Shown here: positions 1,410 through 11,619 of the stretch, piece by piece
How positions within the stretch are numbered: the stretch's first letter is position 1
Layout of the letters: every line of letters begins with the position of its first letter
NCBI RefSeq assembly: GCF_000306785.1
Contig: NC_017955.1
Coordinates: forward strand, 868,001 to 932,000
Source of the DNA: Modestobacter italicus
GTDB taxonomy: Bacteria; Actinomycetota; Actinomycetes; Mycobacteriales; Geodermatophilaceae
Direction of reading: 5' to 3'
Length of the DNA stretch: 64,000 bases
The notes under the pieces: model-generated
Databases searched by the model: none
The model's input: only the letters and a program-made list of their open reading frames with translations
What the model was told of the DNA's origin: nothing
Position numbers and translations under genes: made by a program

Positions 1410-2381
1410 TCAGAGGGGTTGGAGGCGGCGCCAGGCGGTCCAGGCGCTGGTGACCATGTCGTGCAGGTCGTACCGCGCCCGGAAGCCGAGCTCGCGCTCG
1501 ATCCGGCCGACCGCGGCCACCACGCTCGCCGGGTCACCGGGCCGGCGGCCGACCACCTCGGGCGTGGTGTCCGCGCCGGTCACCTCGCCGACCACCCGGA
1601 GGACGTCGAGCACGCTGGCGCCCTGCCCGCGGCCCACGTTGTAGGTGCCCCCCGGCGAGCCGGCCGTCAGCGCGCGCACCGCGGCGAGGTGGGCCTCGGC
1701 GACGTCCGCGACGTGCACGTAGTCCCGGACACCCGTGCCGTCGGGGGTGCCGTGGTCGTCGCCGAACACGAGCGGTGCCGAGCCGGCGTCCAGCGCGGCG
1801 AAGACCAGCGGCACCAGGTTGGCCGCACCGGAGTCGCCCAGCCGGGGCGTCGCCGCGCCGGCGACGTTGAAGTAGCGCAGCGAGGTGGCGGCCAGCCCCC
1901 AGGCGGCGGCGCAGTCGCGGAGCAGCCACTCACCGACCAGCTTGGTCTGCCCGTAGGGCGACAGCGGCCGGCACGGCGCGTCCTCGGCCACCGGGTCGGC
2001 GTCCGGGGTGCCGTAGACGGCGGCGCTGCTGGAGAACACGAACCGGGCGACCCCCTTGGCCCGGCAGCTCTCCAGCAGCGCGACCAGCCCCTCGACGTTC
2101 TCCGCGTAGTAGGTCAGCGGGTCGGCGACCGACTCGGCCACCTGCTTCTTGCCGGCCACGTGCACCACGCCCTGCACCGCGTGCTCGCGCAGCACCCGGC
2201 GGACCAGCCCGCGGTCCCGGACCGAGCCGACCACCAGCGGCACGCCGGGCAGCTCCGCCAGCCGGCCGGCGTCGCCGGTGGAGAGGTCGTCGAGCACCAC
2301 CACCTGCTCACCGGCCGCGGTCATGGCGTGCACGACGTGGGCGCCGATGTAGCCGGCACCGCCGGTCACCAGCCAGCTCAT
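1410..2381 (-). CDS. galE: NAD-dependent sugar-nucleotide epimerase, GalE type
   Basis: This is an extended short-chain dehydrogenase of 323 residues. The Rossmann motif GGAGYIG is at 7-13, the catalytic serine region SSSAAVYG near 117-124, and YGQTK (Tyr143, Lys147) forms the YxxxK pair. Closest resemblance is to UDP-glucose 4-epimerase, which interconverts UDP-glucose and UDP-galactose or the GlcNAc forms. The ATG start overlaps the deacetylase stop as ATGA, and this is the last gene of the ten-gene block. By inference it may supply or adjust the UDP-sugar used by the GT4 enzyme two genes upstream. Substrate specificity cannot be read from the sequence, so it may not be the housekeeping galE. 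Confidence 0.88.
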   Translation of the reverse strand: MSWLVTGGAGYIGAHVVHAMTAAGEQVVVLDDLSTGDAGRLAELPGVPLVVGSVRDRGLVRRVLREHAVQGVVHVAGKKQVAESVADPLTYYAENVEGLVALLESCRAKGVARFVFSSSAAVYGTPDADPVAEDAPCRPLSPYGQTKLVGEWLLRDCAAAWGLAATSLRYFNVAGAATPRLGDSGAANLVPLVFAALDAGSAPLVFGDDHGTPDGTGVRDYVHVADVAEAHLAAVRALTAGSPGGTYNVGRGQGASVLDVLRVVGEVTGADTTPEVVGRRPGDPASVVAAVGRIERELGFRARYDLHDMVTSAWTAWRRLQPL

Positions 2382-3088
2382 GCCCGCACCGCCAGCACGT
2401 CCCGCGCCGCCGACCCGGCGAGCAGCACCTCGGGCAGGTCGGCCAGCGCCGCGCGCATGCCCGCCTCGCCGCCGAACTGGAAGCCGAGCTGGGTGGTGTA
2501 GCAGGCGCAGGCGTCGGCGCGCCGGTCCAGCAGCTGCGGGAGCTCGACGGTGGACAGCCCGCCGGGCAGGGCCTCGCCCGGGACGGCGTCGGGCCGGCGG
2601 AGCACGTAGGGGCTGTCCCGCCACCACAGCACCGGCAGGTCCAGCGACGCGACCGCCCGCAGCACCTGCAGGTGGTCGACGTGCGCGCCCAGCCCCTGCG
2701 GGGCCAGCCACAGGTCCGCGGTCTGCCCGGCGAGCAGGTCGGCCACCTCGCGCCAGACGTCGTCGCCCGGGTGCACGCCGGCGAACAGGTCGGGGGCGCT
2801 GGTGTAGCCCCGGTGCGGCGCCTCGGGCAGGTCGAGGTCGACCGGGGTGGCGCCGAGCACCGCCATCGCGGCCGCGTTCTCCGCGCGGCGCAGCGCCAGG
2901 TAGTCGACGTCGGCGGGCAGCCCCTTGTCCAGCTGGCAGGCCAGCGCGAAGCCGGTGGGGTCGGGCACGCTGCGGGTGAAGCAGGTGACCACGGTGACCT
3001 CGTGCCCGGCGTCGGCCAGCGCCGCCAGGGTCGCCCCGGCGGAGAAGGCCGCGTCGTCCAGGTGCGGGCTGACCGCGAGCACCCGCAT
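2378..3088 (-). CDS. PIG-L family deacetylase
   Basis: This is a 236-residue zinc-dependent amidohydrolase of the LmbE/PIG-L family. The metal-binding motif SPHLDD is at 7-12, the LRRAEN helix near 66-71, and the third metal ligand region HVDH at 136-139. Family members remove acetyl groups from GlcNAc-containing substrates such as GlcNAc-inositol (MshB in mycothiol synthesis) or GlcNAc-phosphatidylinositol. It starts inside the glycosyltransferase stop (TGATG), so the two are translationally coupled. A likely role is deacetylating the glycoside made by that glycosyltransferase. No signal peptide is seen, so it should act in the cytoplasm. The family is clear; the substrate is inferred. Confidence 0.88.
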   Translation of the reverse strand: MRVLAVSPHLDDAAFSAGATLAALADAGHEVTVVTCFTRSVPDPTGFALACQLDKGLPADVDYLALRRAENAAAMAVLGATPVDLDLPEAPHRGYTSAPDLFAGVHPGDDVWREVADLLAGQTADLWLAPQGLGAHVDHLQVLRAVASLDLPVLWWRDSPYVLRRPDAVPGEALPGGLSTVELPQLLDRRADACACYTTQLGFQFGGEAGMRAALADLPEVLLAGSAARDVLAVRA

Positions 3089-4296
3089 CAGAGCAGGTGC
3101 GCTGCGGCCCGGAACCGGCAGCTCGGGTCGACGGTCGTGGGCGGCGTCCAGCCCAGGTCCGGCAGGGTGCCGGCGAGCCGGGTGCAGACCCCGTCGATCG
3201 CGCCGGCCAGCACCGGCCAGGAGTAGAGCCGGCGGACCTCCTCCAGGGCGGTCGTGGCCAGCCGCTGCCGCAGCTCGGCGTCGGACAGCAGCCGGTCGAG
3301 CTCCTTGCGCAACCCCGCCACGTCGCCGGGTTCGTGCAGCAGCCCGTTCTCCTCGTGCCGCAGGCAGTCGACGACGCCGACGCTGACGGTGCTGACCGTG
3401 GGCAGGCCGCTGGCCATCGCCTCCAGCAGCGTGTTGCTGAACCCCTCGCTGTAGGTCGGGCTGACGAACACGTCGGCCGAGCGGTACACCGCGGGTGCCT
3501 CGTCCGGGGGCACGTAGCCGAGGAAGGTGGTCCGGTCGTCGGCCCGGGCGCGCGCCTCCTCCAGGTCCGGGCCGATGCCCGACACCACCAGCCGGACGCC
3601 GTCGGGCAGCGCCTCGAGCAGGTCGAGCACCCCCTTGCGGCGGTCGACCCGGCCGTGGAACAGCAGCACCGGCGGGTCGGCCAGGCTGCCCAGCGGCCGG
3701 TCGGCCGGCGTGAACCGGCGGGTGTCGGTGGCGCCGGGGACGATCGTGAAGCGCGCCGGGTCGGTGCCCAGGTTGCCGACCACCTCGTCGCGGAAGCTGG
3801 CGCTGCCGATCAGCACCGCGCCGGCGTGGTCCAGCACCGCCCGCATCGCCTCGGCGTGGGTGCGGCAGCAGGTGCCCACCCAGTGCCCGTCGCCGCCCTG
3901 GATGCTGACCAGGTTCGGCACGCCCGTGCGCCGCGAGGCCTCCAGCACCGCCAGCCCCGGCGGGTAGCCGTACTGGGCGTGCAGCACGTCGAAGGGCCGC
4001 TGGTCGTGCAGGGCGACGACGGTGCGGACGAGCTCCTCGATGTCGCCCTCCCAGTCGGCGGGGACGACGGTCTCGCCGCGGCTGGGCAGCGCGTGCACCT
4101 CGACCCCGGCGGGCACCCGGTCGGCCGGCGGCGGGCCGCCCCCGTAGACCCGGGTGCCGGCCTCGTCGTCCCGGTACTGGCTGACCAGCGTCACGTCGTG
4201 CCCGAGCGCGACCAGCTCGCGCAGCAGGTTCTCCGCGTAGACGCTCATGCCGCTCACCGCCGGCCAGTAGCGCCGGCTGACGAAGCAGATCCTCAT
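3088..4296 (-). CDS. GT4 family glycosyltransferase
   Basis: This 402-residue retaining glycosyltransferase has the GT-B fold. The N-terminal acceptor domain begins RICFVSRRYWPAVSGMSVY; the C-terminal donor domain carries HGRVDRRKG (phosphate-binding Arg and Lys) and an EX7E-type segment, SPTYSEGFSNTLLEAMASG. Relatives include MshA, which joins GlcNAc to inositol 3-phosphate. Placed between a TIM-barrel isomerase and a PIG-L deacetylase and downstream of an inositol-phosphate synthase gene, it probably glycosylates a cyclitol. It has no membrane segment. ATGA overlap links it to the preceding gene. Family assignment is firm; donor and acceptor are inferred. Confidence 0.9.
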   Translation of the reverse strand: MRICFVSRRYWPAVSGMSVYAENLLRELVALGHDVTLVSQYRDDEAGTRVYGGGPPPADRVPAGVEVHALPSRGETVVPADWEGDIEELVRTVVALHDQRPFDVLHAQYGYPPGLAVLEASRRTGVPNLVSIQGGDGHWVGTCCRTHAEAMRAVLDHAGAVLIGSASFRDEVVGNLGTDPARFTIVPGATDTRRFTPADRPLGSLADPPVLLFHGRVDRRKGVLDLLEALPDGVRLVVSGIGPDLEEARARADDRTTFLGYVPPDEAPAVYRSADVFVSPTYSEGFSNTLLEAMASGLPTVSTVSVGVVDCLRHEENGLLHEPGDVAGLRKELDRLLSDAELRQRLATTALEEVRRLYSWPVLAGAIDGVCTRLAGTLPDLGWTPPTTVDPSCRFRAAAHLL

Positions 4297-5123
4297 CCCT
4301 CGGCCTCCCTCAGCAGCTCGATCGAGCGGGGCACCAGCTGGTGCGCCCGGTGGCCGTCGCGGGAGAGCTCCAGGCTGACCAGCCGGTCGTAGCCCACCGC
4401 GCGCAGCGCGGCCAGCACCGCCGGCAGGTCGACGTCGCCCTCGTCGAGCGGCAGGTGGTCGTGCACGCCGCGGCGCATGCCCTCGACGGCGACCGCCCCC
4501 AGCTGCGGGCCGAAGGCGGTCACCGCCTGCTCGGGGGTGTACCGGCCGCTGACCACGCAGTGCCCGGTGTCCAGCGCGAGGGTCAGGCCGGGCACGTCCG
4601 CAGCGAGGGCGGCCCAGTCGTCGGCGTCCTCGACGAGCATCCCCGGCTCCGGTTCGACGGCCAGCGCGTAGCCGCGCCCGCCGTGGCTGTCGACGAGCGC
4701 CCGGACGCCGTCGACCAGCCAGCCGCGGGCGGCCGCCCGGTCGACGCCGGGCTGCGGCACGCCGGCCCAGAAGCTCACCGCCTCGGCCTGCAGCACCTCG
4801 GCGAGCTCGCAGGCCAGCCGCAGGTAGGCCAGCCGGCGGGCGCGGCCCTCGGGGGTCGGGTTGACCAGCGTGGGCTCGTGCTTGACCCGCGGGTCGAGCA
4901 GGAACCGGGCGCCGGTCTCGACCACCACGCCCAGCCCCAGGTCGTCGCAGCGGCGGCGGACCCGCTGGGCCTGCGCGCGGGCGTCGACGGCGAACGGGTC
5001 GAGGTGGTGCACGTCGAGGGTGAGGGCCACCCCGGCGTACCCGGTGTCGGCCAGGAACGACAGCGCGTCGTCGAGCCGGTGCGAGGTGAGCCCGTTGGTG
5101 TTGTAGGCGTACCGCAGGCTCAC
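4293..5123 (-). CDS. TIM-barrel sugar phosphate isomerase/epimerase-like protein
   Basis: This 276-residue protein resembles AP-endonuclease-2-like TIM barrels (IolE/IolI, xylose isomerase-like). The N-terminus RYAYNTNGLTSHRL gives the first strand; AVEPEPG, LALDTGHCV and SLELSRDGH carry the Glu, Asp/His and Glu residues expected to bind a divalent metal. The GTG start at 5123 overlaps the YcaO stop (GTGA), which supports this start. IolI and IolE relatives act on inosose, which fits the inositol theme of the operon, though some family members act on unrelated sugars. The frame is also open upstream through the YcaO gene, discussed under that gene. Confidence 0.8.
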   Translation of the reverse strand: MSLRYAYNTNGLTSHRLDDALSFLADTGYAGVALTLDVHHLDPFAVDARAQAQRVRRRCDDLGLGVVVETGARFLLDPRVKHEPTLVNPTPEGRARRLAYLRLACELAEVLQAEAVSFWAGVPQPGVDRAAARGWLVDGVRALVDSHGGRGYALAVEPEPGMLVEDADDWAALAADVPGLTLALDTGHCVVSGRYTPEQAVTAFGPQLGAVAVEGMRRGVHDHLPLDEGDVDLPAVLAALRAVGYDRLVSLELSRDGHRAHQLVPRSIELLREAEG

Positions 5124-6572
5124 GAGCTCACCGCCAGCGCGGCGACGTGCCGGCCGGGCTCCCGGTACAGCGCGTACAGCTCGCCGACCGCCCGCTCGGC
5201 GCCGGCCCGGTCGAACCAGGCCGGCCCACCCAGGCGCTCCTCCGCCTCGGCGGTCAGGTGCACCCGGGCCCAGCCGCCGGGGTCCGGCGCCGACGGCGGC
5301 GAGCCCGGCCCCGGGGCCGTCGCCGCGGTCGAGCAGCCGGCGCACGCCGCGCTCACCGATCCGGCCGTAGGACATCGTCTCGGCCTCCAGGCCGGGCACC
5401 AGCACCTTCGCCGCCACGGCCTCGCCCCGGGAGGGCTGCAGGTCGACCAGCACGTCGTACCCCTCGGCGGTGAGGGTGCCGACCACGTCGTCGTCCCCGC
5501 CGCTGGGCAGGTCGGACAGCGCCACGCTGCTCCGCCGGGACAGCACCGAGCCGCGCAGCAGGTCGGTCAGCCGGTCGGTGCCCAGCCGGGTCCACCCGAG
5601 CATCGCCTGCAGCGCCCGGTCCTCCTCGACCATCCGCTCCGGCGGGTGCCCGCGCAGCCACTGGTCCAGGTAGCCCGGCGGGGTGGCGGCGGCGACGGCG
5701 TCCAGCGGGCCGTGCATGAACGCCTTGCGGCTGCGCGCGGCGGCGAACTCGTGCAGCGCCTTGCGCACCGCGGCGTCCCGGTCGGGGTCGGCCGCCTCGC
5801 CGCAGGCGGTGACCATCATCGGGGCGGGCTCCGAGCCGTCCCGCGAGCAGCCGACGGCGTAGACGTCGACGATGCCGTGCTCGGTGCTCGCCAGCTTGAC
5901 CAGCACGTCGATGCCGGCGGCGTCGAGCCGGTCGAGCAGGGCCAGCGCATCGGGGTCGTGCAGACCGGCCAGGTCGACCACCACGCCCTGGTCCAGCGCG
6001 CGGAAAGTGGTGGCGTTCCCGTCGCGCTGCAGCAGCTCGAGCAGCGCGTGCCGGACCGCCCGGTCGGCGTCGAACGCCGCGCCCTGGCCGTTGGTGATCA
6101 CCGTGGTGAGCCAGCCGCCGGGCGGTGGGTCCCCGGGCAGCTCCTCGGGCGCGGAGACGACGAGCTCGGCCGGCACCAGCACGGTCTCGCCGTCCCGGGT
6201 GCGGGTCATCGGCAGCCACTGGAGCTCGCGGTCGTCGTCGTAGGTGCTGCCGGCCTCCAGGCACAGCGTGCGCGGGTCGGCCACCCGGTCCCGGCCCTCG
6301 GTGCGGGCCAGCTCCCGGTACGAGCCGTGCACCCGGTCGAGCCCGGCGTGCGCGCGGATGGACAGCGCCATCTCGGCCATCTCGCCGAGCGCGCCGGTGC
6401 GGGCCTCCTCCCGGGTCGCGCCGTAGCCCAGCCCGCTGCCGCCCGGGTGCTCCGGCGTCGAGGAGAGGAACGCGCTGTGCAGCGGCACGTCGAGGACGTC
6501 CAGGCCCTCGATGGCGAACTCCTCGACGCCGGCCGGGAAGGAGTCCAGGTACCGCTGGGAGGTGGTGGTCAC
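5120..6572 (-). CDS. YcaO-domain protein, frameshifted as sequenced
   Basis: YcaO enzymes use ATP to activate amides, making azolines, thioamides or amidines in peptides, or modifying proteins. The YcaO-like core runs from GTG at 6572 (GTGA overlap with the previous stop), with segments such as GSGLGYGATREEA, ITNGQGAAFD and ALLELLQRDGNATTF. Around 5275-5345 the credible protein changes frame: upstream of it one frame is YcaO-like, downstream another frame encodes the natural-looking tail (HLTAEAEERLGGPAWFDRAG) that stops at 5120 in a GTGA overlap with the next start. The span is 1453 nt, not a multiple of three. The run CCCCGGGG at 5309-5316 is a likely indel site. No C-terminal PxPxP, cyclodehydratase partner or precursor peptide is seen. 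Confidence 0.75.
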
Positions 6573-7453
6573 AGCTCGGTCAGCGCGATCGGTGCGGCGT
6601 CCGGACGCCCGGCCAGCAGCCGCTGCACCAGGTGGACGACGTGGTCGGTGGTCACGCCCGGCACCAGCTCGAACGGCGTGGCCACGGCGCCGAAGTCCAG
6701 CTCGGCGACCACCGCCAGGTACTCCCGCAGCTCGCCGTGCGAGAGCGGGATCTGCGCGTGGAACGCCTTGTGCGCGCTCAGCCCGACGGGGTTGCCCTCG
6801 CCGTCCAGGTCGACCTTGAGCGAGTCGCCGCAGAAGAGCACCCCGCGCCGGCTGTCGTGCAGCACCGAGTGCCCGGGGAAGTGCCCGCCGGTGCGGTGCA
6901 GCGTCAGGTCGGGGGCCAGCTCGAGCACGTCGTCGGCGGGCCAGGTGACCCGGAAGGCCTTGGTCCACTCCAGGTCGCGCACCCCGACGCACACCGTCGC
7001 GGGCTCCAGCTCCAGCTGCAGCTGCCACAGCGCGCCGTAGCCGTGCACGTGGCTGGAGGCGAGCACGTCGAACCCGCCCTTCTCGGCGGCCATCCGGCGC
7101 AGCTCGGCGAGCATCTCGGCGGTGTACCAGGGCGCGCACTCGAAGCCGACCAGCCCGGCGTCGGTCTCGATGACCCAGCCGCGGCTGTCCAGCCCGAAGC
7201 GGGGTCCGGTGCCGAACTCGGTGATGCCGGCCACGGCGGTGGGCCGCCAGAAGCCGGTGACCAGCTCGTCGGCCTGCTTGGGGGTGACGAACTCGAAGCC
7301 GTGCTCGGGCAGCGCGTTGCGCACGTCGGCGCAGACCGGGCAGACCTGCGGGCCGGGGGCCGGCCAGCGCTGCCAGTGCCCGCAGTTGGTGCAGGCGAAG
7401 GCGGGCAGGTCGGGCAGCAGGCCGCGGTAGGGGTTGGTGTCGGGGTTCGTCAC
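6569..7453 (-). CDS. MBL-fold metallohydrolase with N-terminal zinc ribbon
   Basis: This 294-residue protein starts with a zinc ribbon, CTNC near 21-24 and CPVC near 38-41, followed by a metallo-beta-lactamase fold. Later motifs TGGHFPGHSVL and FCGDSL match the conserved His and Asp ligands of the fold. The usual HxHxDH signature reads SSHVHGYG, so the Asp-His half is absent or changed, which could alter metal binding or activity. It lies in the ten-gene block between an oxidoreductase and the YcaO gene with ATGA/GTGA overlaps. A hydrolase or a metal-binding oxygen-transfer role are both possible; the substrate is unknown. Confidence 0.8.
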   Translation of the reverse strand: MTNPDTNPYRGLLPDLPAFACTNCGHWQRWPAPGPQVCPVCADVRNALPEHGFEFVTPKQADELVTGFWRPTAVAGITEFGTGPRFGLDSRGWVIETDAGLVGFECAPWYTAEMLAELRRMAAEKGGFDVLASSHVHGYGALWQLQLELEPATVCVGVRDLEWTKAFRVTWPADDVLELAPDLTLHRTGGHFPGHSVLHDSRRGVLFCGDSLKVDLDGEGNPVGLSAHKAFHAQIPLSHGELREYLAVVAELDFGAVATPFELVPGVTTDHVVHLVQRLLAGRPDAAPIALTEL

Positions 7454-8454
7454 GAGCGGGCTCCGGTGCGGTCGGTGGCGGCGTCGAGCGCCTGCACGAG
7501 CAGGCGGTGCAGGGCGAGGTCGCGGTCGGGCGGGTACGGCCAGGGCGCCGCGCCGGTGACCGCGGCGCCGAACCCGGCGAACTGGGCGGTGAACGGGTCG
7601 GTGCCGGCGAACGGGACGTCGACCGGCTCGGGGCGGAACAGCGTGAGCGACCCGCCGGCGGTCTGGCCCATCGTGTCCACGGCGACGGCCATGCCCCGGG
7701 TGCCGACCACCTCGAGCCGGCGGCGGGGGAGGGCGTCGGGGCAGTTGTAGGACACGTGCAGGTCGACCAGCACGCCCCCGGCGGTGCGGCCGGCCAGCAG
7801 CGCGCCGTCGTCCACCGGGTAGTCCTGCACCCGGTTCTGCAGCAGCGCGGAGAGCTCGACGACGTCCTCGCCGAGCAGCACACCGGCCAGGTCCAGGCCG
7901 TGCGGGGCCAGGTCGATCGCGGCGCCCCCGCCGGCCCGCGACCGGTCGACCCGCCAGTTGTCATGCGGGCCGCCGTCCGGTGACCAGTCGGCCGGCAGCC
8001 AGCAGCAGTAGGCGATCCGGACGGCGGTGACCGTGCCCAGCTCGGGCACCAGCTCGCGCAGCCGGACGTGCGCGGGGTGCCAGCGCTGGTCGAAGGCGGT
8101 GCCCAGCAGCACACCGGCGCGGGCGGCCGCGGCGACGGCGGCCTCGGCGTCGGCGACGTCGGCGGCCAGCGGCTTCTCGCACAGCACCGCGACCCCCGCC
8201 GCGGCGGCCGCCTCGACGACCTGCCGGTGGGCGGAGTTGGGCACCGCGACGTAGACCGCGTCCAGGCCTGGGGTGGCCAGGAACGCGGCCAGGTCGGTGC
8301 TGCGGGGCGCCTCGACCGGCATCCGGGCCATCGCGGCGGGGTCGCGGTCGTGCAGCGCCACCAGCCGGGCGCCGGGGACCTGCAGCAGGCCGGGCAGCGC
8401 GTGGTCGCGGGCCACCCAGCCGCAGCCGGCGACCCCCCACCCGACGCCGCTCAC
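7450..8454 (-). CDS. Gfo/Idh/MocA family NAD(P)-dependent oxidoreductase
   Basis: The N-terminal Rossmann fold (GWGVAGCGWVARDH), the CEKPLA motif near residue 95 and the C-terminal beta-sheet domain with GGGAAIDLAPHGLD mark a Gfo/Idh/MocA dehydrogenase of about 334 residues. The family includes inositol 2-dehydrogenases, which fits an operon that begins with inositol-3-phosphate synthase. The GTG at 8454 overlaps the methyltransferase stop (GTGA); a second GTG at 8457 is also possible. The HGLD motif keeps the catalytic-type His. It probably oxidises a cyclitol or sugar carbon, but the exact substrate is inferred only. Confidence 0.85.
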   Translation of the reverse strand: MSGVGWGVAGCGWVARDHALPGLLQVPGARLVALHDRDPAAMARMPVEAPRSTDLAAFLATPGLDAVYVAVPNSAHRQVVEAAAAAGVAVLCEKPLAADVADAEAAVAAAARAGVLLGTAFDQRWHPAHVRLRELVPELGTVTAVRIAYCCWLPADWSPDGGPHDNWRVDRSRAGGGAAIDLAPHGLDLAGVLLGEDVVELSALLQNRVQDYPVDDGALLAGRTAGGVLVDLHVSYNCPDALPRRRLEVVGTRGMAVAVDTMGQTAGGSLTLFRPEPVDVPFAGTDPFTAQFAGFGAAVTGAAPWPYPPDRDLALHRLLVQALDAATDRTGARS

Positions 8455-9485
8455 CACTGCTCCGGCAGGTCGACCAGCAGCCGCCGGCGGGCCGCGTCGG
8501 CCGGCAGCGGGTCTGGCCAGCGGGCCGGCAGGTGGCCCGACCGCGGGCCGTACTCGGCGGCGTACCGCTCGCTGGGCCAGCGGAGCGCGCCGTCGGCGTA
8601 GAGCGGGTTGGGGCGCAGCGGCCCGAGCGGCTCGCCCAGGTCGACCGGGGCCGGGCTGCGCAGGTCACCGGCCACCAGGGCGATCGCCTCGCTGCCGGCC
8701 AGCTCCGCGGCCGGCGCGGGGCGGGGCGCGCGGCGCTCCAGCAGCGAGCGGGTCAGCTCCTCGTCGTCGTAGAGCAGCGTGGCGCCCAGCAGCCGGGCGT
8801 ACTCGTCGGGGGGCAGCGGCGCGCCGTGCGGGTCGGCGACGTGCGCGTGCCCGACGACGACCGTGCCGCCGGGCCCGGCCAGCCGGGCCATCGCGGCAGC
8901 GGCCGCGGCCTTGTCCCGGAAGAAGTAGAAGGCGTCGGTGCAGGTGACGAACGCCGGCCGGCCCACCTGCAGGTCCGGTGCGGTCGTCACGTCGGCGCAC
9001 ACGTACCGGGCGGTCGGGCACACGAAGCGCCGGGCCAGCCAGAGCTTGGCCCAGACGACGTCCAGACCGACCAGGTCGGCGACGCCGCGGCGGGCGAGCT
9101 CGCGCAGCTGCGTGCCGATGCCGCAGGCGACGTCGACCACCGGCCGGTCCCCGGGCCAGTGCTGGCCGAGCAGCGCCAGCCCGGCCAGGTGGGTGGGGTC
9201 GGACCAGCGGTGGGCGAAGTAGTCACCGACCCGGCCCATGCCGAGCAGCTGCATGGCCTCGCGCAGGCTGCCCGCCGCGGGGACCCGCGCCAGCTGCTCG
9301 GCGGGGGGAGCGGGCTCGGTCCACCAGTCGTCGGCGTCGGCGAGCAGCGCCACCCGGGCCCGGTCGACCTGGCCATCGGCGAGCAGGGCGGCGACCCGGG
9401 CCTGCAGCTCCTCCCGCCCGGTGCGGGCGAAGGGGATCCCGTCGACGACCGGCACCCCGGTCGCGGTGACACCGGTGACGCTCAC
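8451..9485 (-). CDS. SAM-dependent methyltransferase-like protein
   Basis: This 344-residue protein has a class I methyltransferase core in its middle: VVDVACGIGTQLREL (motif I) near 120-134 and LVGLDVVWAKLWLARR (motif II), then CADVTTAPD and FVTCTDAFYFF. The roughly 110 residues before the core and 90 after it are not recognised and may form a substrate lid. The start is GTG at 9485 in a GTGA overlap with the HD-like gene. In this operon it could methylate a cyclitol or sugar hydroxyl or amine. A catalytic methyltransferase is likely from motif I, but the target is unknown. Confidence 0.78.
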   Translation of the reverse strand: MSVTGVTATGVPVVDGIPFARTGREELQARVAALLADGQVDRARVALLADADDWWTEPAPPAEQLARVPAAGSLREAMQLLGMGRVGDYFAHRWSDPTHLAGLALLGQHWPGDRPVVDVACGIGTQLRELARRGVADLVGLDVVWAKLWLARRFVCPTARYVCADVTTAPDLQVGRPAFVTCTDAFYFFRDKAAAAAAMARLAGPGGTVVVGHAHVADPHGAPLPPDEYARLLGATLLYDDEELTRSLLERRAPRPAPAAELAGSEAIALVAGDLRSPAPVDLGEPLGPLRPNPLYADGALRWPSERYAAEYGPRSGHLPARWPDPLPADAARRRLLVDLPEQW

Positions 9486-10387
9486 AGCCCCGCCGCCGCC
9501 AGCACGTCCAGGTGGAACGACTGCACCGGCCCGGCGTGCACCAGCTCCAGGTCGTCCAGCGCCTGCGCGGCGGTGAAGGCAGCGGCGCGCGCGTGGTGGT
9601 GCACCTGCAGCACCCGGTCGAGGACGTCGGCGGCGTGGAAGGCCTGCGACTCCGGTGCCACGGCGTCGGCCCGCAGCGCCAGCACCTGCCGCAGCCGGTC
9701 CGCCAGCTCGGCGGGCAGGCCGGCGAGCTCCCGCTCCTCGAGCGTGCCGAGCACCCGGTCCAGCGCGCCGCCCAGCAGCACCTCGCCGGCGAACCCGGCG
9801 TCGGGCAGCACGACGTTGTGCAGGTGGTGCGCCATCCCGACCAGGAACGGCGGCACCGGGTCGGCGCCCAGCGCGGGGGCGAGCAGGCAGCCGTAGACGG
9901 CCACGGTGAGGCAGTGGTCGCCGTGGCTCTCCGGCGGCTCGACGATGACCCGCGGCTTGCCCGGGCTGGTGGCCCCGGCCCGCGGCTGCGCGTTCAGCGC
10001 CACCGCCAGCGACGGCGGGGGACCGGCCGGCCGCACCGCGGGCAGCGCCGCCCGCAGCCGGTCGGCCAGCTCCGCGTCGAGGGGCCCGGCGACCTCGTCG
10101 AAGGCGCGCCGCAGCACCGCCTGCGCCTCGTCGTCGGACAGCCCGGCCGCCGTCAGCACCGGGGCGTCGATCCCGGCCAGCCGGGCCCGGGCCACCGCCG
10201 CCGCGGTCTCCGACAGCGCCACCGCCTCGGCGTCCTCGCCCTCGAGCAGCCGGGCCCAGGCGCGGCCGAACGCCTGCTCGGCCAGCGAGCCGGGTGCCGC
10301 GGCCGTGCGGACGCGCTTGGCGTCACCGATCTCGGCGAGCAGGGGTCGCAGCGCCCCGAGGGGGGAGAGGTCGGTCGTCGTCGTCAC
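9482..10387 (-). CDS. HD-domain-like protein of unknown function
   Basis: This is a 301-residue protein. The first half is Ala/Leu-rich helical sequence. The second half reads like an HD-type phosphohydrolase: PPESHGDHCLTVAVYG, VGMAHHLHN and AFHAADVLDR, which correspond in order to His, His-Asp and Asp of the HD superfamily. The usual HD pair is HH here (AHHLHN), so metal binding may differ. The chosen GTG at 10387 overlaps the stop of the synthase gene (GTGA); a longer open frame to 10609 lies inside the upstream gene and has a poor composition. By position it could be the phosphatase that follows inositol-3-phosphate synthase, but this is only inference. Confidence 0.6.
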   Translation of the reverse strand: MTTTTDLSPLGALRPLLAEIGDAKRVRTAAAPGSLAEQAFGRAWARLLEGEDAEAVALSETAAAVARARLAGIDAPVLTAAGLSDDEAQAVLRRAFDEVAGPLDAELADRLRAALPAVRPAGPPPSLAVALNAQPRAGATSPGKPRVIVEPPESHGDHCLTVAVYGCLLAPALGADPVPPFLVGMAHHLHNVVLPDAGFAGEVLLGGALDRVLGTLEERELAGLPAELADRLRQVLALRADAVAPESQAFHAADVLDRVLQVHHHARAAAFTAAQALDDLELVHAGPVQSFHLDVLAAAGL

Positions 10388-11619
10388 CGGGGGCCGGGGA
10401 CGACGACGCTCCCGCCGGCCAGCCAGTCCATCAGCTCGGACTCCTGGCGGTGCAGCGCGTGCTCGGGGGTGCTGCCGTCGGCGGTGATCGGGGCCTTGAA
10501 GAACCAGCCGAGGTGCCGCTGCACGCCACCCTCCCCGCGCTGCTGGGCGAGGTCGACCAGCCGGACGATCTCGACGGCCAGCGGGGCGGCCAGGATCGAG
10601 TCCCGGCACTGGAAGTCGACCTTGATCTGCATGCGCTGGCCGAGGAAGCCGACCAGGTCGATGGCGTCCCAGGCCTCCTTCTGGTCACCGCGGGGGCGGT
10701 AGTAGTCGATCCGGACGACGTGGTCCTCGACGGGGTAGCCGAGGATCGAGTCGAGCACCTTGGCCTTGGTCTGCAGCTTGCTCTCCAGCGACGCCGGGTC
10801 GTCGAGCGCGAGCCCGTCCCGGTTGCCGAGGATGTTGGTGGAGTACCAGCCCTCGACGGTGAGCGCGCGGCTGCGGAAGGCCGGGGCCAGCACCGTCTTC
10901 ATCATCGTCTGGCCGGTCTTGCCGTCCTTGCCCGCGATCGGTACGCCGCGCTGCTCGGCCAGCTGCACCAGCGCCGGGACGTCGGCCGAGAGGGAGGGGG
11001 TGAAGTTGGCGTAGCCGACGCCCTCGGTGATCGCGGCGTACGCGTAGACCATCGACGGGGTGATCGCCCGGTCGTCGGCGTCCAGGCCGGCCTCGAACGC
11101 CTCGGGCGTCTGCAGGCAGGCCGCCGCCGGGTCGGGCCAGCGCTCGGTCGAGGCCAGGTTGAGCAGCACCAGCCCGTCGAGCTGCTGCTCCTCGCGGAAG
11201 CGGCGCAGGTCGGCGCGGACGGCGTCGACCTGGGCGCGGCGGCCCTCGGCGAGCACCACGTTGCCGCCGGTGACGTTGCGGCAGAAGTCGGCGTCGCCGG
11301 CGGCGGGCCAGGGCGTGATGGTCGACAGCAGCGGCTCGGCCTGCTGCAGCTGGCGGAGGTCGAGCACGCCGTGCTGCTCGGCGGCCTTGTACAGGTCCGA
11401 ACCGTCCAGGTCCCAACCGCCGACGACCAGCTCGTCGTAGCCGACGAGGCCGGTGGCCTCCTCCAGGGACGCGCCGCCGACGGTCAGCCCGGCGAGGGGG
11501 AGACCGTCGGCGCCGACGGCGCCCAGCCGCAGCAGCTCCAGCCCGGCGACCGCGGTGGTCGCCACGGCACCCCCGAGCCCGACGATGGCCGTTCCGACCC
11601 GACGTGGTGAGTGCGACAC
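10384..11619 (-). CDS. Inositol-3-phosphate synthase family protein
   Basis: This 411-residue protein matches NAD-dependent myo-inositol-1-phosphate synthases: TAIVGLGGAVATTAVAGLEL (NAD site), NLASTE near the middle, GKDGKTGQTMMK with the catalytic lysines, and SILGYPVEDHVVRIDYYRP, QIKVDFQCRDSILAAPL near the end. The reaction converts glucose 6-phosphate to inositol 3-phosphate. GTG at 11619 is chosen because GAGGAG lies seven bases upstream. It is the promoter-proximal gene of the ten-gene block, which suggests inositol phosphate is the starting material. Actinobacteria normally have another housekeeping copy; whether this one is the main enzyme cannot be told here. Confidence 0.9.
   Translation of the reverse strand: MSHSPRRVGTAIVGLGGAVATTAVAGLELLRLGAVGADGLPLAGLTVGGASLEEATGLVGYDELVVGGWDLDGSDLYKAAEQHGVLDLRQLQQAEPLLSTITPWPAAGDADFCRNVTGGNVVLAEGRRAQVDAVRADLRRFREEQQLDGLVLLNLASTERWPDPAAACLQTPEAFEAGLDADDRAITPSMVYAYAAITEGVGYANFTPSLSADVPALVQLAEQRGVPIAGKDGKTGQTMMKTVLAPAFRSRALTVEGWYSTNILGNRDGLALDDPASLESKLQTKAKVLDSILGYPVEDHVVRIDYYRPRGDQKEAWDAIDLVGFLGQRMQIKVDFQCRDSILAAPLAVEIVRLVDLAQQRGEGGVQRHLGWFFKAPITADGSTPEHALHRQESELMDWLAGGSVVVPGPR

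Follow-up and report, generated by a model that had tools for sequence, protein, structure and literature searches.

We found that a 64,000-nucleotide stretch of the Modestobacter italicus genome (contig NC_017955.1, positions 868,001 to 932,000; the window) holds a tightly packed nine-gene cassette with a YcaO enzyme, whose gene order is nearly always kept across six bacterial phyla. Our preferred interpretation, to which we would give about an even chance, is that this self-contained, horizontally spread cassette makes a small, polar, intracellular glucosaminyl-cyclitol that is finished by YcaO and is perhaps a protectant against light or desiccation. YcaO enzymes are known from peptides and proteins, and if our interpretation is true, the substrate of this one is a sugar-cyclitol and not a peptide. 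The product of a nine-gene pathway kept in this way in six phyla is probably a small molecule in wide use, and the many carriers from sunlit or dry places point to an undescribed, perhaps protective metabolite, to which Geodermatophilaceae, Rubrobacter, and leaf Methylobacterium may owe some of their tolerance of light and drought. Literature searches on YcaO together with inositol-3-phosphate synthase, mycosporine, cyclitol, glycoside, and the host genera, made partly by titles and listings, returned no description of the cassette.

Organization of the cassette

The genome comprises 5.58 Mb on one contig. Ten minus-strand genes run from 11619 to 1410, of which the first nine form the cassette:

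10384 to 11619, minus strand: inositol-3-phosphate-synthase-type cyclase (IPS), gene 1, 411 amino acids (Pfam NAD_binding_5, 4.5e-64; Inos-1-P_synth, 4.8e-35)
9482 to 10387, minus strand: HD-fold protein, 301 amino acids, candidate phosphatase (or diiron-type enzyme), recognized by its predicted fold, with no Pfam or NCBIfam family match
8451 to 9485, minus strand: S-adenosylmethionine-dependent methyltransferase (MT), 344 amino acids (Pfam Methyltransf_25, 5.8e-10; alignment of 14 rows)
7450 to 8457, minus strand: Gfo/Idh/MocA oxidoreductase, 335 amino acids (Pfam GFO_IDH_MocA, 3.3e-23)
6569 to 7453, minus strand: metallo-beta-lactamase (MBL)-fold protein with an N-terminal Cys4 zinc ribbon, 294 amino acids (Pfam Lactamase_B, 2.4e-6)
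5120 to 6572, minus strand: YcaO enzyme, main frame from 6572 to about 5280, C-terminal end in the +1 frame at 5266-5120 (Pfam YcaO, 1.5e-50)
4293 to 5123, minus strand: xylose-isomerase-like triosephosphate isomerase (TIM) barrel, 276 amino acids (Pfam AP_endonuc_2, 2.4e-33)
3088 to 4296, minus strand: GT4 glycosyltransferase, 402 amino acids (Pfam Glycos_transf_1, 1.1e-30)
2378 to 3088, minus strand: PIG-L type deacetylase, 236 amino acids (Pfam PIG-L, 7.3e-15)
1410 to 2381, minus strand: UDP-glucose 4-epimerase GalE, overlapping the operon, non-core (TIGR01179, 343.9 bits versus a cut-off of 262.3)

Neighboring genes overlap by 4 bases at seven of the nine junctions (the YcaO/TIM overlap being counted from the stop at 5120, which belongs to a shifted YcaO frame), by 7 bases between MT and Gfo/Idh, and by 1 base between GT4 and PIG-L. 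An earlier note on this DNA had described ten overlapping or nearly abutting genes on this strand and named their families, and both descriptions hold: all nine junctions overlap by 1 to 7 bases, Pfam and NCBIfam profile searches gave the same assignments, the HD-like label agrees with the predicted fold, and the zinc ribbon is backed by four Cys residues invariant in 15/15 aligned rows. Its ten-gene unit stands in part, as nine genes are conserved but GalE is a local add-on, which follows the cassette immediately and on its strand in 6/80 relatives (L043-L046, L056, and L060 in our numbering of loci) and was ruled out as a core gene.

The overlaps are themselves kept across relatives. In a count covering four junctions, the 4-base overlap was exact in 59/67 cases for YcaO/TIM, 46/50 for MBL/YcaO, 45/66 for IPS/HD, and 37/60 for HD/MT. 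The gene families, their order, coupling, and conservation are direct observations, and neither a precursor gene nor a transporter is present among the nine. The ten genes likewise include no precursor peptide, MshC, or transporter, and no precursor lies between them, as the earlier note had stated.

Conservation and spread

Scanning species genomes turned up 248 relatives; the best 80 of them were combined with four plasmid loci into a set of 84, so that the counts are biased toward close kin, Geodermatophilaceae, and Methylobacterium. A locus too short to span the cassette was scored as lacking genes. All nine genes occur in the same order in 39/84 loci, and at least six of the nine occur in 71/84, with the order kept in 69 of these 71 and rearranged in two (L071 and L075). 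YcaO stands alone in 8/84 loci, and the remaining five hold three to five cassette genes, which we read as contig-end cuts (L043, L072, and L085), a split locus (L070), and a reduced one (L092). In the last of these, from Corallococcus llansteffanensis (8613-11404), short IPS and HD remnants precede Gfo/Idh and YcaO, and the locus looks half deleted. MT is absent from 8/71 of the larger loci and MBL from 19/71 (18 named Methylobacterium and one Methylobacteriaceae metagenome-assembled genome [MAG]), and these two genes are thus dispensable in some lineages.

Loci with at least six genes were found in Actinomycetota, Pseudomonadota, Myxococcota, Chloroflexota, Planctomycetota, and Bacteroidota, so that the synteny, which the earlier note had suggested looking for in other actinobacteria, extends well past them. 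Carriers include Methylobacterium, Geodermatophilaceae, Rubrobacter, and a lichen MAG, as well as Streptomyces, Micromonospora, Corallococcus, and Hymenobacter from air. The Bacteroidota case is a plasmid of Hymenobacter volaticus, whose annotation splits Gfo/Idh into two overlapping pieces (L125, 7072-8120). In Methylobacterium aquaticum 22A, too, the cassette sits on a plasmid, pMaq22A_1p. YcaO accompanies the HD gene on 4/4 plasmids that have it; the cassette is mobile, and plasmid carriage is a means of its spread. The HD gene had no match among phage records.

Within the genus, a close YcaO (E < 1e-200) is present in 8/23 genomes, and in a phylum sample of 396 genomes a YcaO of the cassette type (E up to 1e-20) was found in 10, seven of which also have the HD gene (E < 1e-70). 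Pairwise divergences of eight of the genes agree with one another (r 0.88-0.97 over all locus pairs, 0.22-0.86 over distant pairs). A YcaO tree of 64 rows, made up of the window and 63/88 others after 25 close Geodermatophilaceae and Methylobacterium loci were dropped, places Modestobacter sequences as the nearest relatives of the window YcaO. Because it groups rows by phylum, with Myxococcota, Pseudomonadota, and Chloroflexota each forming one group and Actinomycetota requiring two changes, the tree suggests old transfers between phyla and not constant shuffling.

Proposed pathway

The claim that this is a dedicated cyclitol and glycoside gene set with a YcaO enzyme is supported. The chemical steps, the order in which they occur, the product, and the role of that product are our inference. 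IPS would cyclize a sugar phosphate, and the HD-fold protein would strip the phosphate from the resulting cyclitol phosphate. Oxidation of the ring by Gfo/Idh would follow, then its isomerization or dehydration by the TIM barrel, a metal-dependent enzyme, in the manner of IolG and IolE, with an optional ring methylation by MT. GT4 would add an N-acetylhexosamine, and PIG-L would remove the acetyl group to leave a free amine. YcaO and adenosine triphosphate (ATP) would finally phosphorylate an oxygen of an amide, enol, or acid, to be displaced by an amine or another nucleophile, a step that we place where mycothiol synthesis has MshC. The resulting metabolite may protect against light and drying.

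The best PDB profile match of IPS is the inositol-3-phosphate synthase 7nwr (1.9e-121), with 1u1i also nearest, presumably the Bacteroides and Archaeoglobus enzymes; a second IPS/INO1 homologue, 28% identical to the cassette IPS, lies elsewhere in the genome. Conserved motifs are present in the IPS and TIM barrel alignments, and motifs kept at 95% or more include CEKP and DLAPHG in Gfo/Idh (70 rows), EGFSNT.LEAMA in GT4 (71 rows), and SPHLDD and HVDH in PIG-L (68 rows); their catalytic meaning is general knowledge. The TIM barrel keeps E157, D185, H188, and E252 in an alignment of 16 rows, which we take to be the usual metal site of the family, and its PDB profile matches are UlaE (9.2e-10) and IolE (1.5e-9). 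YcaO covers profile positions 2-325 of 325 in PF02624 with 172.8 bits, versus a cut-off of 25.7. The MBL-fold model (pLDDT, the predicted local distance difference test, 91.7) has a B1 MBL as its top Foldseek match (E 5.1e-9), and the protein keeps HxH but lacks the DH pair of HxHxDH in 15/15 aligned rows.

The AlphaFold model of the HD-fold protein (mean pLDDT 89.8) matches the HD-domain proteins 4l1j and 1xx7 in Foldseek at probability 1.00 but with E values of 0.15-0.17, and profile matches are weak (2cqz, 0.017; 1xx7, 0.27). H155, H158, H187, H188, D254, and D257 are invariant in 18 aligned rows. Since the gene set has no other phosphatase, phosphate removal is the likeliest job of this protein; a myo-inositol-oxygenase-like (HD diiron) activity is a candidate alternative, and PhnZ matches the model at a Foldseek probability of 0.25 only.

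The earlier note had allowed that the gene set might prove to be a known pathway. Mycothiol and ebo membership were both examined, and neither fits. Up to the deacetylated glycoside, the predicted logic of the cassette resembles mycothiol synthesis, with inositol-phosphate synthase, GT4, PIG-L deacetylase, and then a proposed ATP-using condensation, but it has YcaO in place of the ligase MshC, for which no Pfam or NCBIfam match was found among the ten genes, and it adds Gfo/Idh, TIM, MT, HD, and MBL. Mycothiol biosynthesis itself was ruled out: IPS, GT4, and PIG-L all fall far under the mycothiol model cut-offs (GT4 63.3 bits against the MshA model TIGR03449, cut-off 462.5; PIG-L 19.3 bits against the MshB model TIGR03445, cut-off 224.35), and the genome has its true MshA at C1:5012872 (633.8 bits) besides the separate INO1 homologue.

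The ebo clusters offer a second partial likeness. Cassette IPS and TIM are 38% and 44% identical to their counterparts in a Nocardioides ebo cluster (L141) and 35% and 44% identical to those of Arthrobacter cheniae, but the window set is without EboA, TatD, the UbiA-like EboC, EboE, and the phosphodiesterase. For the ten window proteins, the NCBIfam matches listed include none to EboA, EboB, EboC, EboE, or EboF, all of which are present in L141, and the two ebo loci compared have no YcaO, GT4, or PIG-L match. Membership in ebo was therefore rejected because the Ebo genes are absent, despite the related IPS and TIM, a pair of genes that is thus shared by two distinct pathways. The actinobacterial ebo clusters at L141 (4819-11975) and L142 (7193-14252) hold an IPS homologue, a SCO3242-family prenyltransferase, an EboA domain, TatD, EboE, and a phosphodiesterase. 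Gfo/Idh and the TIM barrel belong to fold families also used in inositol catabolism (IolG, IolE, and IolI), but Gfo/Idh reaches 89.2 against an IolG cut-off of 355, and the IolE model is not listed for the TIM protein.

Solo YcaO operons

The order of steps is informed by the eight solo YcaO loci (L074, L081, L091, L093, L097, L100, L105, and L119). Relatives of one sugar ATP-binding cassette (ABC) permease are present in 7/8 of them and in 0/76 other loci, and a polysaccharide-deacetylase-like gene neighbors YcaO in 5/8 (over the Pfam cut-off in L091 and L105, under it in L074, and called by similarity in L081 and L093). The HD gene was not found in the six solo genomes searched for it. Three held-out genomes of the phylum sample that have YcaO but not the HD gene (L143, L144, and L145) show no other cassette gene near YcaO. 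In L143 (5636-11318) and L144 (7472-13083), a single strand bears, one after another, a binding-protein-like gene, two permeases (one of them assigned by similarity), YcaO, and a polysaccharide-deacetylase-like gene; both genomes belong to a family in which other members hold the full cassette. The L145 contig begins at YcaO, with the deacetylase-like gene present beside it. Over the 11 solo loci, the permease is found in 9 of the 10 with both sides visible and the deacetylase-like gene in 8/11.

We read these operons as users of an imported glycoside, in which the deacetylase replaces PIG-L and YcaO performs the final step. Because solo YcaO sits with sugar ABC permeases and a deacetylase-like gene, YcaO probably acts after glycosylation and deacetylation, and the import operons point to a sharing of the compound, or of its precursor, between bacteria. 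Two solo-type genomes, Nocardioides (L074) and Arthrobacter cheniae, also have an ebo cluster that includes relatives of IPS and TIM, which we take to be a coincidence. In Aurantimonadaceae, a manganese catalase gene lies directly upstream of solo YcaO (L119, 8833-9759; L100, 1761-2687).

Linkage to spore photoproduct lyase and a possible role in light protection

Spore photoproduct lyase (SPL) is an ultraviolet (UV) repair enzyme. YcaO has SPL within 10 kb in 5/84 loci from four lineages (Microvirga L091 and L093, Roseomonas L126, Rubrobacter marinus L086, and, in pieces, the Isosphaeraceae MAG L077), whose hosts we take not to form endospores. A chance estimate for this linkage was based on an assumed mean of 0.2. 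The SPL genes are of two types and include the following:

L126, 14810-16931: SPL
L091, 3149-4195 and 8678-9784: SPL
L086, 974-2074: SPL
L077, 10176-10695: SPL

Among 28 hand-picked YcaO carriers, which mix cassette and solo carriers, SPL is present in 25 (22/24 genomes and 3/4 plasmids), compared with a signal in 3 of 14 control genomes, over the cut-off in one. In the phylum sample, SPL exceeds the cut-off in 5/10 YcaO carriers (3/7 with the HD gene and 2/3 solo) versus 24/386 others (p 2.9e-4, confounded by kinship). The SPL data speak for a UV-exposed lifestyle, and the physical linkage speaks weakly for a common task with the cassette. The window genome has two SPL homologues, at C1:5466898 and C1:1169067 (271 and 127 bits), neither of them near the cassette.

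Several points weigh against our interpretation. TIM, MT, and MBL are each absent from some loci; a different N-acyl sugar could be what GT4 and PIG-L handle; and substrate and product are predictions. The solo locus L105 has no relative of the sugar ABC permease; the sugar taken up by the importers could be unrelated, and the deacetylase-like gene could have another substrate. As to light, the SPL linkage was noticed post hoc, half of the phylum-sample YcaO carriers (5/10) are without SPL, and nine of these ten carriers come from a single family, where SPL is also found in the absence of YcaO. In the genus of the window, SPL is near-universal, being found in 8/8 genomes with YcaO and in 13/15 without it.

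Alternative products

An inositol-derived, mycosporine-like sunscreen, that is, a UV-absorbing enaminone with glucosamine, strikes us as rather unlikely. The mycosporine pathway (mysA-C) combines a cyclitol ring, O-methylation, and ATP-driven amine attachment, as we propose for the cassette; Gfo/Idh and TIM would give a 1,2-dione or enediol ring (as IolG and IolE do), MT would cap the enol, and YcaO would swap the vinylogous acid oxygen for an amine. This chemistry matches the generally known logic of 4-deoxygadusol, and the SPL linkage and hosts such as Methylobacterium, Geodermatophilaceae, Rubrobacter, the lichen MAG, and the air Hymenobacter speak for it, but the chromophore is a prediction only, the larger cassettes include the 8/71 without MT, and several hosts (Corallococcus and Streptomyces) are, by general knowledge, ordinary soil bacteria. 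The pathway to mycosporine-like amino acids uses a dehydroquinate-synthase-type cyclase and an ATP-grasp ligase, and no Pfam match over the cut-off to either type of enzyme was found among the ten genes. UVA absorbers are reported from Methylobacterium (PMC12573535, PMC9664959). On the sunscreen reading these would be candidate products, although methylobamine may be unrelated.

It also appears rather improbable that YcaO uses sulfide to form a thioamide or other thio group, as on McrA of methanogens, and so yields a mycothiol-like antioxidant. McrA-type YcaO carries out ATP-dependent amide activation and acts on a protein glycine. The nearest solved YcaO is indeed the McrA-thioamidation enzyme MJ1094 (6pe3; 8.9e-23 in the PDB profile search), and the McrA-glycine thioamidation model is the second NCBIfam match. 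Its score, however, is 67.5 against a cut-off of 365, the window cassette differs in being without a protein or peptide partner, and no sulfur-carrier or TfuA family occurs among the ten genes.

A wider proposal, which we consider unlikely, is that mycosporine-like UV screens are also made outside cyanobacteria, by a second route that is based on inositol. A methoxy-cyclohexenone would come from IPS, Gfo/Idh, a TIM dehydratase, and MT, GT4 and PIG-L would supply glucosamine, and YcaO would form the enaminone, with solo-operon bacteria importing the acetylated precursor made by others, deacetylating it, and finishing it with YcaO.

Cyclitol and aminosugar genes recall aminoglycosides, and Streptomyces, Micromonospora, and Corallococcus are among the hosts, so that a secreted antibiotic or signaling compound of this kind may be considered, but we judge it distinctly unlikely. 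Neighbors of 26 loci were clustered by protein similarity, and no family was common to more than two lineages, which leaves no exporter, regulator, or resistance gene as a constant neighbor; moreover, the gene order is kept over phyla. Two neighbor families occur in two lineages each (Streptomyces L073 with three Corallococcus, and L053 with L103).

In favor of a thiazole/oxazole cluster for a ribosomally synthesized and post-translationally modified peptide with an unseen precursor, YcaO scores with the SagD family model, at 81 bits, under its cut-off of 219.25. Such a cluster is highly improbable and was rejected, since the overlapping genes leave no space for a precursor between them (small open reading frames elsewhere were not searched), no E1-like partner is found among the ten genes, and the C-terminal PxPxP, a feature of YcaO enzymes of such thiazole/oxazole peptide clusters, is absent from the last 60 residues in 12/12 YcaO relatives whose frame reaches the C terminus.

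The YcaO reading frame

The window YcaO is not one open reading frame, a feature that the earlier note did not mention. The final ~50 codons are shifted to +1 (49 codons, 5266-5120); the main frame has no stop of its own and continues into the TIM gene as a fused frame of 759 codons. The seven congeners each have a single YcaO frame of 480-483 amino acids (7/7), from which the window differs by one base at 5266-5330; the region around the break was viewed base by base in 6/7 of them. Either the YcaO of this strain has lost its normal last ~50 residues or the record carries a one-base error. YcaO also varies in copy number, as three myxobacterial cassettes hold tandem copies, three in L085 (275-4833) and two each in L095 (5193-8193) and L106, possibly for different substrates.

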